The translations under genes were made by a program, and so were the position numbers. A stretch of DNA of 16,068 nt from Treponema sp. (GTDB taxonomy: Bacteria > Spirochaetota > Spirochaetia > Treponematales > Breznakiellaceae). The DNA lies in assembly GCA_031255615.1 (NCBI GenBank), contig JAIRSD010000090.1, positions 1-16,068 of the forward strand, written 5' to 3'. The stretch's first letter is position 1. Each line of letters begins with the position of its first letter. A model generated the notes under the pieces. The model worked only from the letters and a program-made list of their open reading frames with translations, was not told the origin of the DNA and made no database searches. Positions 7,707 through 14,670 of this stretch are shown one piece after another.

Positions 7707-7792
7707 AAAGACCGGGACCCATCCCGCCGCGTTATCCCCGGCATGTTTCATCTGAAAATACACCTTTTTTTTGTAATATTCACCATCCGCCC

Positions 7793-7821
7793 TTGACGTA
7801 TAAATAGATCGGGTATATTCT
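7793..7821 (+). promoter_or_regulatory. Candidate promoter of the RRM gene
   Basis: TTGACG (7793-7798) is followed 17 bases later by TATTCT (7816-7821); TATATT overlaps it at 7814-7819 with a 15-base spacing. The stretch is much richer in A/T than the genes around it. It is the best promoter between radA and the RRM gene, and implies a leader of about 295 bases. Confidence 0.6.
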
Positions 7822-8124
7822 ATTTCTAGGTTCATAGGTTCGATGTATAGGATAGGTTCTAGCGATTGTTTCCGGGTTAATTTCTCTGTCATGGGGTATC
7901 CTTCTCTTGGTTTGTTTTCCCTGCCGCTGAATTTCTTTTATCCTAATCAATTCCAGCATCCTGCTTTCCCCAGAAGGGGAGGGAGTCGTCCACATAGTCG
8001 GGCGTGAATAAATGCGGAATCCGGCCGCACAATCAAAGGATCGTATGCACCCGTCCCGCATCTACGGACATGGGGGGAGGGGGAATTGCGGAAATTTGAT
8101 AATTCCGGATGAAGGAAATCTTCA
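7822..8124 (+). promoter_or_regulatory. Long structured leader of the RRM gene with three TAGGTTC repeats
   Basis: No gene is visible here. TAGGTTC occurs three times in direct orientation (7827-7833, 7835-7841, 7853-7859) just after the predicted start site. Further down, TCCCC/GGGGA forms a small hairpin (7967-7980). CGGAAATT pairs with AATTCCG (8089-8107, one bulged A), with an alternative partner GGAATT at 8082-8087. The Shine-Dalgarno AAGGA (8112-8116) lies within a 4-bp GAAG/CTTC hairpin. A long leader with competing structures near the ribosome site would fit temperature or autoregulatory control of an RNA-binding protein; that is inference. Confidence 0.45.
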
Positions 8125-8418
8125 ATGGGCAAGAAATTGTATGTGGGGAATCTCTCGTACAACACTTCCGAGGACAGTTTGCGTAACTTGTTTGCTGAAT
8201 TCGGAAACGTTGCTTCCGCCAAGATCATTTTTGATCGTGACACCGGTAATTCCAAAGGTTTCGGCTTTGTGGAAATGGGCACCGATGATGAAGCCAGCGC
8301 AGCGATCACCGGGACCAACGGTCGTGAATTAGAAGGCCGCCAGCTCCGGGTGAACGAAGCAATGGATAAACCCCGGCGGGATCGGGGTTCCGGTGGATAT
8401 AGCGGAGGCAACTGGTAG
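8125..8418 (+). CDS. RRM-type RNA-binding protein
   Basis: This is a 97-residue protein made of one RNA recognition motif. RNP2 is LYVGNL at residues 5-10 and RNP1 is KGFGFVEM at 44-51, with the expected aromatic residues for stacking on RNA bases. A short Arg/Gly tail follows (DKPRRDRGSGGYSGGNW), as in the small Rbp proteins of cyanobacteria and spirochaetes, several of which are cold-induced and bind single-stranded RNA. AAGGA lies 8 bases before the ATG. It stands alone: a long leader precedes it and an intrinsic terminator follows. Its base composition is less GC-rich than radA. The RNA target cannot be inferred. Confidence 0.93.
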   Translation: MGKKLYVGNLSYNTSEDSLRNLFAEFGNVASAKIIFDRDTGNSKGFGFVEMGTDDEASAAITGTNGRELEGRQLRVNEAMDKPRRDRGSGGYSGGNW

Positions 8419-8446: not shown

Positions 8447-8482
8447 GGCGCTTCCGATGGTCATCCGTTGGGAGCGCCTTTT
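8447..8482 (+). terminator. Intrinsic terminator after the RRM gene
   Basis: GGCGCTTCC (8447-8455) pairs with GGGAGCGCC (8470-8478) over 9 positions with one G-U wobble. TTTT (8479-8482) follows directly. The 14-base loop contains a small GAT/ATC inner pairing. It lies 28 bases after the RRM stop. Confidence 0.7.
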
Positions 8483-8555
8483 CCGTATCCTGGGGGGCCT
8501 TGTCTCCCGTGTTCTCCCGTTCCGCATCTCGGCATTTCCAAAAAAAGGGGGTTGC

Positions 8556-8984
8556 ATGAATGAGAAGAGTCTCCGTTTTGGCGCTGCTGCCGTGCTTGCT
8601 GCTCTCGCCGTCTTCGCCGCCGGTTTCCGCGCGGGATATCTTCGAGGAAATGGACGCGATAATTTCCGGCATGGAATCGAACTTGAACAAATTAGAGCAG
8701 AACAACGAAGATCTGAAGAACAATATCAGCAGCTTAGAGTCAACTATTCAAGAGAAAGAGAACTTAATTCTCGACTCAGAGATGTTGTTGAAAACAGTGC
8801 AGGACTCTTACAATCAAATGACAACACAATATCTGGACTTAGGCGGCAAATATCGCTCCTTAGAGAAAAAATACAAGAGCTTAAAGATATCTTTGGCAAT
8901 TTCCCTGCCGGTGGTTCTGTTGGCGGGATCCCTGACAACCGCGCTGTTGATGAGGAAGTAGAACCCTGGCATGAGACCGGTTGA
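8556..8984 (+). CDS. Putative membrane-anchored coiled-coil protein (frame 1 of a nested pair; i-spanin-like layout)
   Basis: This 142-residue frame starts MNEKSLRFG. A hydrophobic span at about residues 8-28 (AAAVLAALAVFAAGF at its core) is followed by a Gln/Glu/Arg-rich stretch from about 38 to 118 with heptad-like spacing (for example ISLLREKIQELKDIF). The tail is acidic and polar. An N-terminal anchor with an exported coiled coil is the layout of Rz-type inner-membrane spanins; I recognise no specific family. The start lies only 4 bases after the purine run AGGGGG, tighter than ideal. A fully overlapping frame (8560-8961) also looks coding, so one of the two may be fortuitous. It overlaps the next gene by 14 bases. 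The DNA at about 8640-8900 is clearly more AT-rich than its surroundings, suggesting transfer. Confidence 0.5.
   Translation: MNEKSLRFGAAAVLAALAVFAAGFRAGYLRGNGRDNFRHGIELEQIRAEQRRSEEQYQQLRVNYSRERELNSRLRDVVENSAGLLQSNDNTISGLRRQISLLREKIQELKDIFGNFPAGGSVGGIPDNRAVDEEVEPWHETG
8560..8961 (+). CDS. Putative exported coiled-coil protein with C-terminal membrane anchor (frame 2 of a nested pair)
   Basis: This 133-residue frame starts 4 bases inside the 8556 frame. It begins MRRVSVLALLPCLLLS, a signal peptide with likely cleavage after PVSA (about residue 24). A Glu/Asn/Leu-rich coiled coil follows from about 27 to 107 (for example NLNKLEQNNEDLKNNISSLE). A hydrophobic span at about 110-130 (SLAISLPVVLLAG at its core) precedes the final RK. 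The product would place a coiled coil in the periplasm with a C-terminal inner-membrane anchor. AGGGGG at 8546-8551 is 8 bases upstream, better spacing than for the 8556 start. Codons look natural, and of the two frames this is the one I consider more likely. I know of similar uncharacterised proteins in treponemes, but cannot verify it here. Confidence 0.7.
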   Translation: MRRVSVLALLPCLLLSPSSPPVSARDIFEEMDAIISGMESNLNKLEQNNEDLKNNISSLESTIQEKENLILDSEMLLKTVQDSYNQMTTQYLDLGGKYRSLEKKYKSLKISLAISLPVVLLAGSLTTALLMRK

Positions 8985-9342
8985 ACACTTCCTGTCCCAA
9001 CTGGACAGGCTTGAACGCGGCTCCTCCGCCGGCGCGGAGGAGCAGGCCCTGCGGGGTTTTACGGATCTTGTCTCCCCGGTTATCGGCAGGGCCGGAGCCC
9101 GGGATCTTGGCGGCGCCCTCCTGGGGGAACTGCGGGAAAAGCCGGGGCCCGGCGGGCCCTTCTATATGAAACTGGGCTACGCCGCCGCCTTTCTCCTGGG
9201 GGAATTCGACGATTCCATGGAACTGGAAGCCGGGGAATGGGAGGAGATCCGCTTTGCCCTGGAGGAAGCGGCGGGGGAGATGGATCTCAATACCCTTGCC
9301 GCCCTGATGGGGGACCTCCTTGAACGGGGGAAACTTTTTTAG
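8971..9342 (+). CDS. Hypothetical small helical protein
   Basis: This encodes 123 residues, acidic and Leu/Ala/Glu/Gly-rich, apparently all helical, without signal peptide, membrane span or cysteines. I recognise no family. It begins 9 bases after the 8560-8961 stop and overlaps the 8556 frame by 14 bases, so it is probably in the same transcript. The only purine-rich stretch upstream, GAGGAAG (8952-8958), is 12 bases from the ATG, so translation may depend on coupling. G/C-ending codons are typical of the host, unlike the AT-richer frames before it. It converges on the TPR gene with 24 bases between stops. Confidence 0.75.
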   Translation: MRPVEHFLSQLDRLERGSSAGAEEQALRGFTDLVSPVIGRAGARDLGGALLGELREKPGPGGPFYMKLGYAAAFLLGEFDDSMELEAGEWEEIRFALEEAAGEMDLNTLAALMGDLLERGKLF

Positions 9343-11329: not shown

Positions 11330-12466
11330 ATGGCAGGGACTATTGGCATAAAGATTGCTAACGGCGAGTTCTATTCGATTATTGATGAGAATTCAAATGT
11401 CAAGAAACGGCTGATACTCACCACAGTGCATGATAATCAACGAAGTGTTCAGATAGATTTATACAAAAGTTCCACAATGACGATGGCGGACGCCCTGTAT
11501 ATCGGCAGCCTGGTGGTGGAGGACATCAAGCGGAAACCGAAGGGGGATCCTTCTATCGAGATGATCATTTCCTCCAACGCGAAGGGCTTTATCACCGCGA
11601 AGGCACTGGATCTGGATACCCGTTTCGCCGGGCGGCACCAGTACCTCAATGTATCGCTCCAATCCCTGGATGAGGATGACCGGGATATGTATCTCTCCGA
11701 TTTTGAATTGGAGCAGGAGGGAAGCTCCTCCTCCGGGCTTTATCGCCTGGCCGACAAAATCATGAAATGGGGAAAGGCGAAACAGGGGAAGGAGCTGTGG
11801 GCTTTGGGGATCCTCCTGGGGATGTTGGTGCTCTTTGTTTTTCTGGTCCTTTTCTTTTTTATCTCCCGGGACAAGAATATGCTGGGTAGAGGGGGAATCC
11901 GGTCGCGGGAGATCCTCTTTGCGGCCCAAAACAGCGCCCAGCCCAGCGTAAAAACTGATGCCCCGGCGGTTCCGGCGGCCCGGCCCGCTACGGAGTCCGC
12001 CGCCCCGGAGGATCCCGCAGATTCGGATCCGGCGGCCCAAGCCGCCGCGGAGTCCGCCGCCCCGGAGGATCCCGTAGATTCGGATCCGGCGGCCCAAGCC
12101 GCCGCGGAAGCCGCCGTCCCGGAAGATTCCGTGGATTCGGATCCGCTTCCGGAGTCCCAGAGTCCGGCTCCCCAGGCCGAAGCGGCCCCGCAGCCTCCCC
12201 CGGTAATCGAGGCCCCGGCCCAGTCCAGCCCTCCGGCCGTTGTGTCTCGGAGACGTAATCCCCCGGTGGCTTCCTACAAGGTTCCGGCCTCTATTCCCCA
12301 GGGCGGGGCGGTGTACCGGGTCCGCTGGGGGGATACCCTGTGGGACATCTCGGAAGCCTTCTACCGGAATCCCTGGCTTTACCCCCGAATCGCCCGGTAC
12401 AACGGTATTCGGAATTCCGATCTGATCGTCGCCGGTACAACCATCCGTATACCTCCCAGGAATTAG
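11330..12466 (+). CDS. Bitopic LysM protein with cytoplasmic Hsp70 substrate-domain-like region
   Basis: This protein has 378 residues. I choose the ATG at 11330, which has GGAAGGAG 8 bases upstream; a TTG at 11312 would add six residues inside that site. Residues ~25-115 resemble the beta-sandwich substrate-binding domain of DnaK: TTVHDNQRSVQI (31-42) and SIEMIISSNAKGFITAKALD (75-94) match the DnaK patterns DNQ-x-x-V-x-I and IEV-x-F-x-x-x-x-x-G-x-L-x-V-x-A-x-D. There is no ATPase domain. One membrane span lies at about 156-180, then an Ala/Pro/Glu/Asp linker with 19-residue repeats, then a C-terminal LysM domain (about 327-378, VYRVRWGDTLWDISEAFY) that binds peptidoglycan. It heads an operon with the transglycosylase. 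Confidence 0.88.
   Translation: MAGTIGIKIANGEFYSIIDENSNVKKRLILTTVHDNQRSVQIDLYKSSTMTMADALYIGSLVVEDIKRKPKGDPSIEMIISSNAKGFITAKALDLDTRFAGRHQYLNVSLQSLDEDDRDMYLSDFELEQEGSSSSGLYRLADKIMKWGKAKQGKELWALGILLGMLVLFVFLVLFFFISRDKNMLGRGGIRSREILFAAQNSAQPSVKTDAPAVPAARPATESAAPEDPADSDPAAQAAAESAAPEDPVDSDPAAQAAAEAAVPEDSVDSDPLPESQSPAPQAEAAPQPPPVIEAPAQSSPPAVVSRRRNPPVASYKVPASIPQGGAVYRVRWGDTLWDISEAFYRNPWLYPRIARYNGIRNSDLIVAGTTIRIPPRN
11993..12145 (+). repeat. 57-bp in-frame tandem repeat in the LysM linker
   Basis: Units at 11993-12049 and 12050-12106 are near-identical, and a third partial, more diverged unit runs 12107-12145. Each full unit encodes 19 residues containing ESAAPEDP and DSDPAAQAAA. The linker spans the periplasm, so copy number could tune its length. 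Confidence 0.85.
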
Positions 12467-14670
12467 TGTTTCGTCCCAAGTCTTCCCGGATCCTCCTTGC
12501 TTTCTGTATTCTCTTCTGTTCCTGCGTCCACGGCGGCAAAGCCCTGTTTCGGGAGGATGCGTTCCGGGCCTACTACCGGGGACGGGGTATCCTGGAACGG
12601 GAGGGCGCCGGGGGGGAAAGCCGGGCCTGGCCCCTCTTTGAGATCGCTCTGGCAAGCGCCAATTCCCGGGTCGCCGAGGCGGCGGCGGCGGAGCTGATCC
12701 TTCCCCTGCTGCGGGGCGGCCTGGATGCCGCCGCCTTTCTTGAAGGCCGCAATAAGTATAGCCGGAAAATCGGGAATCAAGCGGCTTTGCCCCTGCGGAC
12801 CGCCGCCGCCGCCGCGCTTTACCGTCTGGGCCGCTGGGAGGAAACCGCCCTCCTCTTTGGAACCGGGGCGGCTGTTCCGGGGAAGGGGCCGCCCGCCGGC
12901 CGGGAGGCCGCCGGAACAGGAGAGCTCCTCGATTCCTGGGGCAGAGTCCTCCTGTCGCTGGCCCGGCAGCGGCTTGCGCTGGAAACGGAGGAACAAGAAA
13001 GTTCCCGCATGGCCGAAAGCCCCCGGCCCCCCGCCATGGAGGCCCTTCTTTCCTGTCTTTTTGAGATTCCCCCAGGTCCGCCCCTCCGTTGGGCCGCGGA
13101 GGAAATTGACATTGGCTTCCCGGATTTCCTCAACGAGGCGGAGGAAGCCGCTTTGAAGGGCCGGCTGGCGGCGGCTCGTTCCTCCTTCGCCGAGGGTCTG
13201 GCCCTGTTCCGCCCCGCCCTGGAGGAGGATCCGGGGCTTTTCTTGCGCTACCCCGCCCTGATCAGCGATTTAGGCCGTTGTTTTCAGTTCGGGGCCGCCG
13301 GGGATGAGGGGATCGAAACCTTTTTGGCATGGGAAAAAGAAGGGGCCGCTCCGGTTCCGCGCTACCAGCTCCTTTATTACGCAGGCCGCATAGCCCGATC
13401 CCGGGGCAGCTACGACCAGGGGGCCGGGCTGTTTGAACGGGCCCTGGCCGCCGCCCCGGACCCAATCCAGGAAGACGCCTGCCTTTGGTACATCCTGGAC
13501 ACCCGCCTCCGGGAAAGCGGGGAGGGGCTTTCCGGGCCGGAATTAGTAAAACTGGTCAAGACCTGGATGCCCCGCCGCCGCGATCCAGCCTATTTTGACG
13601 ACATCCTGGACCGGGTCGCCCAGCGTTTAGCGTCCTCCGGGCAGTGGCGGTTCTTTCCCGAACTTCTTGCCTTCCTTGAGCAATACGGGGCCCCGCTTTC
13701 AATCGCCCGCTACGCCTACATCAGCGGCAGGGCCCTTAGCGTGGGCCTTATGCCGGGGGAAGGTCCCGGTTTCGGCGGAAAGGAGGCCCGGGAAGAAGAG
13801 GCCCGGCGACTGTTCCGCACCGCCTATCGGACCGGAACACGGGCCCTCTACTACCGGGCCATGGGCGCCTATTTCCTTGGGGAATCCTTTATCTATCCGG
13901 AGGAGGAAACCCGGACCAGGAACCGGAATTTTCCCCACCGGGAGGAAATGGAATTCCTCCTGGGTTTTTACAAGGCCGGACTCCCCAATGCCGGGGAACC
14001 GTATATGGAGGCCCTGGCCGGGGAACTTACCCTGGATGAGCTCCGGGCCCTGGGGGAGGCCATGGAAAAGGCGGGGGCCCATGCCCAGGCTATCAGAACA
14101 GCCTCCCGCTGGATCAACCGGGAGGACTATGAGATCCAGCGGCGGGACCTGGAAATCCTTGCCCCCCGGCCTTTCCAGGAACTGATAGAGGAGGGGGCCC
14201 GGCGGACGGATTTTCCCCCGGAACTGCTCTACGGCCTTGTCCGTACAGAAAGCGCCTTTCAGCCGGAGATCATTTCCCGGGCCGGGGCGGTAGGATTGAC
14301 TCAGCTTATGCCCGCCACCGCGGCGGACATGGCGGGCCGGATGAAAAGAGGAGGGGGGCCTGATTATACGGGGAACCTTGATCTGAAAGACCCGGAAATC
14401 AACACCGGTATCGGGTTCTACTACCTGAATTATCTTCGGGATCTGCTGAACCACCCCCTTTCAGCTATCCTCGCCTACAACGGGGGCCTGGGCCGGGTAC
14501 GGCGCTGGCGTCAAGCCCAGGACGGCCTGCCGGGGGACCTCTTTCTTGAGACCATAGAATACCCGGAGACCAGAGAATACGGCAGGCGGATCATCTCCGC
14601 CGCCGCCCTATATGGGTACCTCTACTATGGGGTGAATCCTCCTCCTTTTTTAGCCGATATATGTAAATAG
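12466..14670 (+). CDS. Lipoprotein lytic murein transglycosylase (Slt type)
   Basis: This enzyme cleaves the MurNAc-GlcNAc bond with formation of 1,6-anhydro-MurNAc. I place the start at the GTG at 12466, sharing one base with the LysM stop (TAGTG) and with AGGA just upstream, giving 734 residues. The frame is open further upstream only because it overlaps the LysM gene. The N-terminus RILLAFCILFCSC is a lipoprotein signal with a loose spirochaetal lipobox, modified at C20. Residues ~25-570 are helical-repeat-like, as in Slt70. The C-terminal SLT domain has RTESAF with catalytic E595, GLTQLMP at 610-616, and the LAYNGGLGRV motif. It is longer than typical E. coli Slt70 (about 620). Translation is coupled to the LysM protein. 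Confidence 0.93.
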   Translation: MFRPKSSRILLAFCILFCSCVHGGKALFREDAFRAYYRGRGILEREGAGGESRAWPLFEIALASANSRVAEAAAAELILPLLRGGLDAAAFLEGRNKYSRKIGNQAALPLRTAAAAALYRLGRWEETALLFGTGAAVPGKGPPAGREAAGTGELLDSWGRVLLSLARQRLALETEEQESSRMAESPRPPAMEALLSCLFEIPPGPPLRWAAEEIDIGFPDFLNEAEEAALKGRLAAARSSFAEGLALFRPALEEDPGLFLRYPALISDLGRCFQFGAAGDEGIETFLAWEKEGAAPVPRYQLLYYAGRIARSRGSYDQGAGLFERALAAAPDPIQEDACLWYILDTRLRESGEGLSGPELVKLVKTWMPRRRDPAYFDDILDRVAQRLASSGQWRFFPELLAFLEQYGAPLSIARYAYISGRALSVGLMPGEGPGFGGKEAREEEARRLFRTAYRTGTRALYYRAMGAYFLGESFIYPEEETRTRNRNFPHREEMEFLLGFYKAGLPNAGEPYMEALAGELTLDELRALGEAMEKAGAHAQAIRTASRWINREDYEIQRRDLEILAPRPFQELIEEGARRTDFPPELLYGLVRTESAFQPEIISRAGAVGLTQLMPATAADMAGRMKRGGGPDYTGNLDLKDPEINTGIGFYYLNYLRDLLNHPLSAILAYNGGLGRVRRWRQAQDGLPGDLFLETIEYPETREYGRRIISAAALYGYLYYGVNPPPFLADICK

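Follow-up and report, generated by a model that had tools for sequence, protein, structure and literature searches.

The window, by which we mean the whole 16,068-nucleotide stretch of Treponema sp. DNA that was analyzed, contains two open reading frames that overlap almost completely on the forward strand, at the positions where a first-pass annotation of this DNA had placed them. Frame A (8556 to 8984, from an ATG at 8556 to a TGA at 8984) encodes 142 amino acids, with a short basic N-terminus, a transmembrane segment, a coiled-coil helix, and a Gly/Pro-rich tail. Frame B (8560 to 8961, from an ATG at 8560 to a TAG at 8961) encodes 133 amino acids, with a signal peptide, a coiled-coil helix, a C-terminal transmembrane segment, and an RK tail. 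B lies in the +1 frame relative to A, i.e., codon position 1 of B is position 2 of A, and the two start codons form a linked double start, ATGAATG (8556 to 8562, forward strand). A has a further in-frame ATG upstream at 8457, but a GGGGG run resembling a ribosome-binding site (8547 to 8551, forward strand) ends 4 nt before the start at 8556, and 8 nt before that of B. Transmembrane and signal segments were called by our own reading of hydropathy and not by a trained predictor; on this basis, the transmembrane segment of A (8577 to 8627, forward strand) overlaps the signal peptide of B, and the C-terminal transmembrane segment of B (8887 to 8937, forward strand) overlaps the end of the helix of A and the start of its Gly/Pro tail.

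The first-pass annotation described this DNA as AT-rich, and the GC fraction of 0.476 at 8501 to 9000 is indeed below the 0.54 to 0.64 of the adjoining intervals, but it is not uniquely low, with 7751 to 8250 lower still at 0.448. A Pfam scan of the neighboring proteins identified chromosomal genes (SbcC, an SbcD-like metallophosphoesterase, a RadA-like protein, and RRM, TPR, LysM, and SLT proteins) together with an unmatched 123-amino-acid protein, and no phage genes were seen among them, as had been described previously. The conserved 123-amino-acid protein without a Pfam match is encoded directly downstream of the pair (8971 to 9342), its gene sharing 14 bases with the end of frame A, and is also found 3′ of the pair in the locus L001 (3291 to 3668). 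The SLT-domain lytic transglycosylase (12340 to 14670; E 9.7e-26) lies approximately 3.4 kb 3′ of the pair and resembles an enzyme of the host more than an endolysin of a phage.

We collected homologues of each frame, and demonstrated that both are conserved across two subfamilies, with relatives reaching down to about 20% identity with the window proteins. A protein search with A returned 19 relatives besides itself, and a search with B returned one (P0003, 80% over 110 residues). The locus L001 carries both frames behind an ATGAATG start (A 67% and B 72% relative to the window), as do L002 and L003 (A about 49%, B about 56%). Within the family, 195 genomes were scanned, of which 23 match the B profile and 6 the A profile; at the order level, there are matches in 41 of 390 genomes, many as fragments only, and at the class level in 24 of 394, several of these matches being, by eye, long unrelated coiled coils. 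Of 30 loci fetched with the B profile, where A was not used, 27 have an open frame of at least 80 codons at the position of A, the other three being broken (L019) or repetitive false matches as judged by eye (L026 and L027); L028 and L032 are interrupted upstream. Three loci fetched with the A profile (L065, L066, and L067) have B open. Linked starts, in which an ATG, TTG, or GTG for A is followed after one nucleotide by the ATG of B at an offset of 4 nt, occur in 31 of 42 tabulated loci. Thirty of these 31 were taken into later analyses, and 27 of the 30 contain a purine run resembling a ribosome-binding site before the starts, mostly 4 to 7 nt 5′ of A.

Both frames are open over the matched stretch in 41 of the 42 tabulated loci, the exception being L060 (2746 to 3141, a second copy in genome G116), where A contains a nonsense codon and B is intact; L054 is missing the N-terminal part of B, and L114 is truncated at a contig edge. 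Outside these 42, both frames are broken in L118, L119, and L121. The pattern that the first-pass annotation had named as speaking against a nested pair, i.e., homologues of one frame only or stops in the other frame in relatives, is in general not what these loci show. Four of the pair proteins had no tblastn match in named phages (50,697 phage records), and viral scans with A1, A5, and A12 identified no relative.

Several observations concern how these copies vary and multiply. In L112 (10088 to 10906), frame A encodes approximately 272 amino acids and runs past the stop of B, as if fused to another domain. Several short B fragments occur within single genomes (G071, G105, G106, and G172), which suggests that such pairs have been gained, and have decayed, repeatedly. 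Two pair copies within one genome (L002, 2376 to 2872, and L003, 5959 to 6455) are 96.8% identical over 497 bp, with scattered short repeats also common to both; the common stretch begins with a C run approximately 84 bp before A and ends just past the genes, and a truncated copy in L007/L061 also starts after a proline run (a run of C). L048 and L049 have in common the pair and a 117-bp upstream stretch, and L043 and L060 the pair and a 948-bp block elsewhere.

The predicted topology of the two products is the same across the linked-start loci. In all 30 of these, as in the window, hydropathy places one N-terminal hydrophobic segment and no second one in A, and both an N-terminal and a C-terminal segment in B (the N-terminal one being weak in L047), with K or R present in the short tail of B in 26 of 30. 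Cleavage of the signal peptide of the window B protein is likely, by eye, after VSA at residue 24. AlphaFold2 predicts B of the window as a single long helix (residues 24 to 132, mean pLDDT 85.8) and A as a single long helix (residues 3 to 114, pLDDT 81.1) followed by a low-confidence tail, and comparison with solved structures returned generic coiled coils only (keratin, Mediator subunit 9, and pRLB-519). The proposal that the two nested frames encode envelope coiled-coil proteins anchored from opposite ends is supported by both the predicted topology and the predicted helices.

In order to assess dual coding, we permuted synonymous codons within each gene while one protein was held fixed. 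With A fixed, B is expected to be open in 0.47 (about 0.5) of the 30 loci, and with B fixed, A is expected to be open in 1.1 of 30; both were observed open in 30 of 30, with the openness of B being partly selected, and that of A much less so, since these loci were chosen for a linked start and an intact B, many via B similarity. For the window itself, B was open in a fraction of 0.03 of 300 shuffles with A fixed, and A in 0.00 (rounded) of 300 with B fixed. All 23 control gene sequences, from 7 groups, contain 3 to 45 stops in the +1 frame. The earlier expectation that two stop-free frames would be hard to obtain by chance therefore held for the window and for the 30 loci.

Substitutions were then counted by codon position of A, using pairs that are not independent of one another: per site, these were 0.19/0.10/0.20 at positions 1/2/3 in 20 pairs with an A identity of at least 0.7, and 0.35/0.23/0.31 in 157 pairs with an A identity of 0.5 to 0.7. 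Between the window and L001, the counts are 33/17/22 over 132 codons (0.25/0.13/0.17), whereas the single-frame neighbors give 72/52/179 for RadA (515 codons), 6/2/25 for RRM (97 codons), and 21/16/53 for the downstream gene (123 codons). Substitutions are thus rarest at the codon position where a change is nonsynonymous for A and B alike, and the third-position excess seen in all three single-frame neighbors is missing, which is the pattern predicted by dual coding; this comparison of synonymous and nonsynonymous change, which the first-pass annotation had proposed, fits constraint on both frames rather than on A alone or B alone. Because common ancestry also raises z-scores in control genes (12.0 and 13.1 for RadA, and up to 7.6 for TerL), z-scores alone are not decisive, and it is the open frames and the position-specific substitutions that carry the argument for dual coding. 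Chance or composition as the origin of the two open frames is ruled out by the shuffles together with the substitution pattern.

A single gene, with the other frame an accident of codon bias and of coiled-coil composition mirrored into the shifted frame, is highly improbable, since, while the sources annotate A in 19 relatives and B in one, and while a shifted coiled coil in purine-rich DNA would tend to yield E/K/R-rich sequence, the open frames misfit constraint on either frame alone, each frame is found open at loci fetched with the profile of the other, as described above, and the substitution pattern in our view refutes it. The sequences show that this locus codes for two proteins in overlapping frames, each of them under constraint. 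As the sources mostly annotate one of the two frames, such pairs are easily half-missed.

Relatives of the pair are found within the lysis cassettes of phages and prophages. A lysis-enzyme gene is located immediately, or a short distance, 5′ of the pair in 8 viral contigs (L062, L063, L065, L066, L067, L070, L153, and L154) and in 13 prophage-like loci from 9 genomes (L111, L112, L113, L116, and L141 to L149), where the enzyme is of the M15, CHAP, C39, or DUF261 type, or untyped in L116. The first six of these contigs are IMG/VR contigs from the second subfamily, in which the pair directly follows a lysis-enzyme-like gene: an M15 peptidase in L063 (PHROG endolysin, E 9.5e-15) and L070 (3.7e-13), a protein of the DUF261 type in L062 (Pfam E 6.6e-4) and L067 (6.4e-4), both below the curated cut-off, and relatives of this DUF261-type protein in L066 and L065. 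The pair is likewise beside a lysis-enzyme gene in L153 (M15) and L154 (CHAP). Among the prophage-like loci, the pair is preceded by CHAP in L112, L141, L143, and L144 (with L142 near-identical by eye), by M15 in L146 and its copy L145, by C39 in L113, L147, L148, and L149, and by DUF261 in L111 (E 1e-9), with some containing one small open reading frame between the lysis-enzyme gene and the pair.

The wider surroundings of many of these loci are also phage-like. For example, L062 carries a Mu-type portal, F-like proteins, and a terminase downstream, and terminase or head genes are found near the pair in L113, L116, L146, L147, L148, and L149, and weakly in L141; in L111 and L112, the one neighbor scanned in each gave no structural-gene match. 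No holin HMM matched any holin-like open reading frame, and small membrane proteins resembling holins were judged by eye. The search of the flanks of homologues that the first-pass annotation had suggested thus returned endolysin-type genes in all 8 viral contigs and in 12 of the 13 prophage-like loci, but holins by eye only. The pair holds its place while the family of the lysis enzyme changes, and in this respect behaves like a spanin gene. That the missing phage genes set the pair apart from spanins, as the first-pass annotation had hinted, is not supported, since relatives are located in lysis cassettes and one branch carries a lipobox in A.

Two further features of these cassettes were observed. 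DUF261-type proteins (PF03196) occupy the lysis-enzyme slot in L062 (9488 to 9925), L065 (9563 to 9991), L067 (9552 to 9989), and L111 (8555 to 8992), several of those before the pair contain a Cys motif, and DUF261 may represent a family of spirochete phage endolysins that has gone unrecognized. Mu-like phages and prophages encode, 3′ of the pair, a further small protein with, by eye, an N-terminal membrane segment and a charged helix (L062, 10365 to 10658; L113, 6516 to 6809; L147, 9213 to 9497; L148, 9648 to 9947; and L149, 9929 to 10297).

The closest approach to a classical spanin is seen in the branch where frame A encodes a lipobox followed by polar residues, i.e., L145 and L146 (MLAAC), L153 (ALSGC), and L141 to L144 and L154 (LFSGC); this motif is strict in L145 and L146, was assigned by reading in L153, and is of the FSGC form in L141 to L144 and L154. 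B of this branch keeps its signal peptide, coiled coil, and C-terminal segment, which gives A the look of an o-spanin and B that of a type I partner in the inner membrane. The case for homology between this branch and that of the window is built on B-profile scores, which are weak (E 1e-6 to 1e-5), and on the architecture and position that the two have in common. A pattern search for lipoboxes within 2.5 kb of the pair in 17 phage and prophage loci, which misses the LFSGC cases, matched A of L146, A of L153, and one opposite-strand open reading frame in L063. Among the 30 linked-start pairs, 13 A sequences contain a lipobox-like Cys but with hydrophobic residues after it, two B sequences contain a lipobox-like motif, and a periplasmic Cys is present in A in 3 and in B in 4.

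In the window, neither A nor B contains a lipobox or a periplasmic Cys, which agrees with the earlier remark that the second product is not an obvious lipoprotein, and a lysis cassette with a holin and an endolysin was not found beside the pair. Other spanin features are present by prediction: A (N-terminally) and B (C-terminally, as a type I protein) each combine one transmembrane segment with a periplasmic coiled coil, as in an inner-membrane subunit, and where spanin genes are embedded, overlapped, or separated, this pair overlaps almost completely in the +1 frame. Window B differs from a unimolecular spanin in that it has the C-terminal transmembrane segment but no lipobox. Matches to Rz-like HMMs are weak (E 0.00095 for A, and 0.031 for B of L063), and A and B of L062 gave no family match at E 0.1. 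As it is without a lipobox, a lysis cassette, or a periplasmic Cys, we class the window pair as spanin-like, and not as a proven spanin.

A dual-coded cassette pair of another kind, e.g., an antiholin, an endolysin regulator, or a superinfection-exclusion membrane protein, would also fit the place beside the endolysin, and most phage loci outside the lipobox branch contain no clear lipobox on either protein, with no other lipobox open reading frame within 2.5 kb by pattern except the opposite-strand one in L063. We nevertheless regard such a role as rather improbable, since the pair stays in place across four lysis-enzyme families, the two long predicted periplasmic coiled coils and the lipobox version in one branch match spanins, and separate small membrane proteins that are possible holins are, by eye, present.

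The prototype two-component spanin is Rz/Rz1 of phage lambda. Like Rz/Rz1, the pair uses different frames of a single DNA segment to encode two envelope proteins, is located 3′ of an endolysin gene in phages, and comprises an inner-membrane coiled-coil partner and, in one branch (A of L145, L146, and L153), a lipoprotein-like one; unlike Rz/Rz1, the second protein has type I topology, with its coiled coil anchored at the C-terminus, and the window pair has neither lipobox nor periplasmic Cys. B resembles the u-spanin gp11 of phage T1 in that an export signal is present at its N-terminus and a transmembrane segment at its C-terminus, but window B lacks a lipobox, is predicted to form one long helix and not a beta-rich fold, and is accompanied by A. 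Kongari et al. 2018 define o- and u-spanins by a lipobox, report that two-component spanins ubiquitously contain cysteines, and place the start of about 70% of embedded o-spanins at 0.4 to 0.5, and the end at 0.9 to 1, of the length of the i-spanin (PMC6139136). Unlike these embedded genes, the starts here are 4 nt apart (7 nt in L141 to L144) and both genes are near full length. A type I, C-terminally anchored protein could serve as an i-spanin, a possibility that these authors named but did not consider (PMC6139136); B of the lipobox branch, with this predicted topology and located beside a lipobox protein and an endolysin, would be a sequence-supported candidate for what was there a possibility only. 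In some Leptospira prophages, holins and spanins have been predicted close to an M23 peptidase (PMC8705779). Among the literature matches listed, no title or abstract opening concerned Treponema spanins or such a pair.

The copy in the window stands apart from any such cassette. The window, L001 to L003, and most of L042 to L060 and L102 to L110 appear solitary, a term that refers to the DNA examined, several chromosomal loci having short flanks. When 167 phage and prophage open reading frames were swept over the chromosomal loci, the matches were mainly to the pair itself and to antisense frames over it, with the exception of two methyltransferase-type matches in L003, one in L045, and one in L109; the last of these matches a tail-side open reading frame of L114, and L109 may be a prophage. 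Ten flanking proteins included no endolysin or holin (esterase, antitoxin, MazF, IF3, and an unknown family were found), and the one beside L060 gave kinase, Ig-domain structural, and tail matches.

Fragments are common among the chromosomal copies, so that relics may be present among the solitary ones, and the window pair could itself be a phage-derived lysis pair left behind by a decayed prophage and now without function. We consider this unlikely. The scattered, solitary, and often fragmentary copies would suit it, as would the damaged examples described above (the nonsense codon in A of L060, the two broken frames of L118, L119, and L121, and the B of L054 without its N-terminal part), but the gene order on both sides of the pair is the same in the window and L001, so that this copy probably predates their split, and both frames are still open in the two. 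In addition, substitution in the overlap (0.25/0.13/0.17) compares with 0.35, 0.26, and 0.43 at the third positions of RadA, RRM, and the downstream gene, with positions 2 and 3 of the overlap clearly lower than these neighbors and position 1 about equal to the slowest. The position held in common with L001 and the constraint on two frames argue for a present role in the host; the window pair probably serves the host, where it may act in controlled lysis, vesicle release, or envelope remodeling, and this is the least certain step of our explanation.

We therefore favor, with a probability of roughly three in four, a dual-coding, constrained pair from a family found both in the lysis cassettes of Treponema phages and prophages and, on chromosomes, as solitary copies, with a spanin-type mode of working and a use by the host in the window. 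The pair in the window would work like, and very probably shares descent with, a phage spanin-type pair. The first-pass annotation had proposed a new nested envelope gene pair; the conservation of both frames upholds the nesting, but the lysis-cassette relatives and the A lipobox identify the pair as a divergent branch of phage spanin-type genes, here a solitary chromosomal copy, rather than as a new kind of envelope pair. What is new is the 4-nt offset of the starts, the full-length dual coding, the type I membrane partner, and retention outside prophages.

In the mechanism that we propose, one ribosome-binding site would serve the two starts 4 nt apart, so that both proteins would be made. 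A would be anchored by its N-terminus, through a transmembrane segment in the window and a lipid in one prophage branch, and B would be exported, lose its signal peptide, and be anchored by its C-terminus in the inner membrane, with the coiled coils of A and B pairing antiparallel in the periplasm. In a phage, the endolysin would remove the peptidoglycan, and the A/B complex would then break open the outer membrane in the manner of Rz/Rz1. The window pair would have outlived its phage and, being still maintained, would serve the host. Counting against a spanin reading, both anchors of the window pair are predicted in the inner membrane, with no evident reach to the outer membrane. A more specific version, which we hold only tentatively and think somewhat more likely to be wrong than right, is a fully dual-coded, two-protein lysis device that evolved in Treponema phages, with anchors at opposite ends, in which a type I partner replaces the classical type II i-spanin, and which some chromosomes, including that of the window, have retained outside prophages and use for a programmed opening of their own outer membrane or for vesicle release.

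The dual coding described here is unusually complete, with two conserved proteins of approximately 130 to 140 amino acids encoded on nearly all of the same DNA. Outer-membrane opening by Treponema phages seems to be little described, and this family makes the type I spanin subunit, raised as a possibility by Kongari et al. 2018 (PMC6139136), testable. The double gene of this gut spirochete is probably an atypical form of the apparatus with which phages breach the outer membrane.
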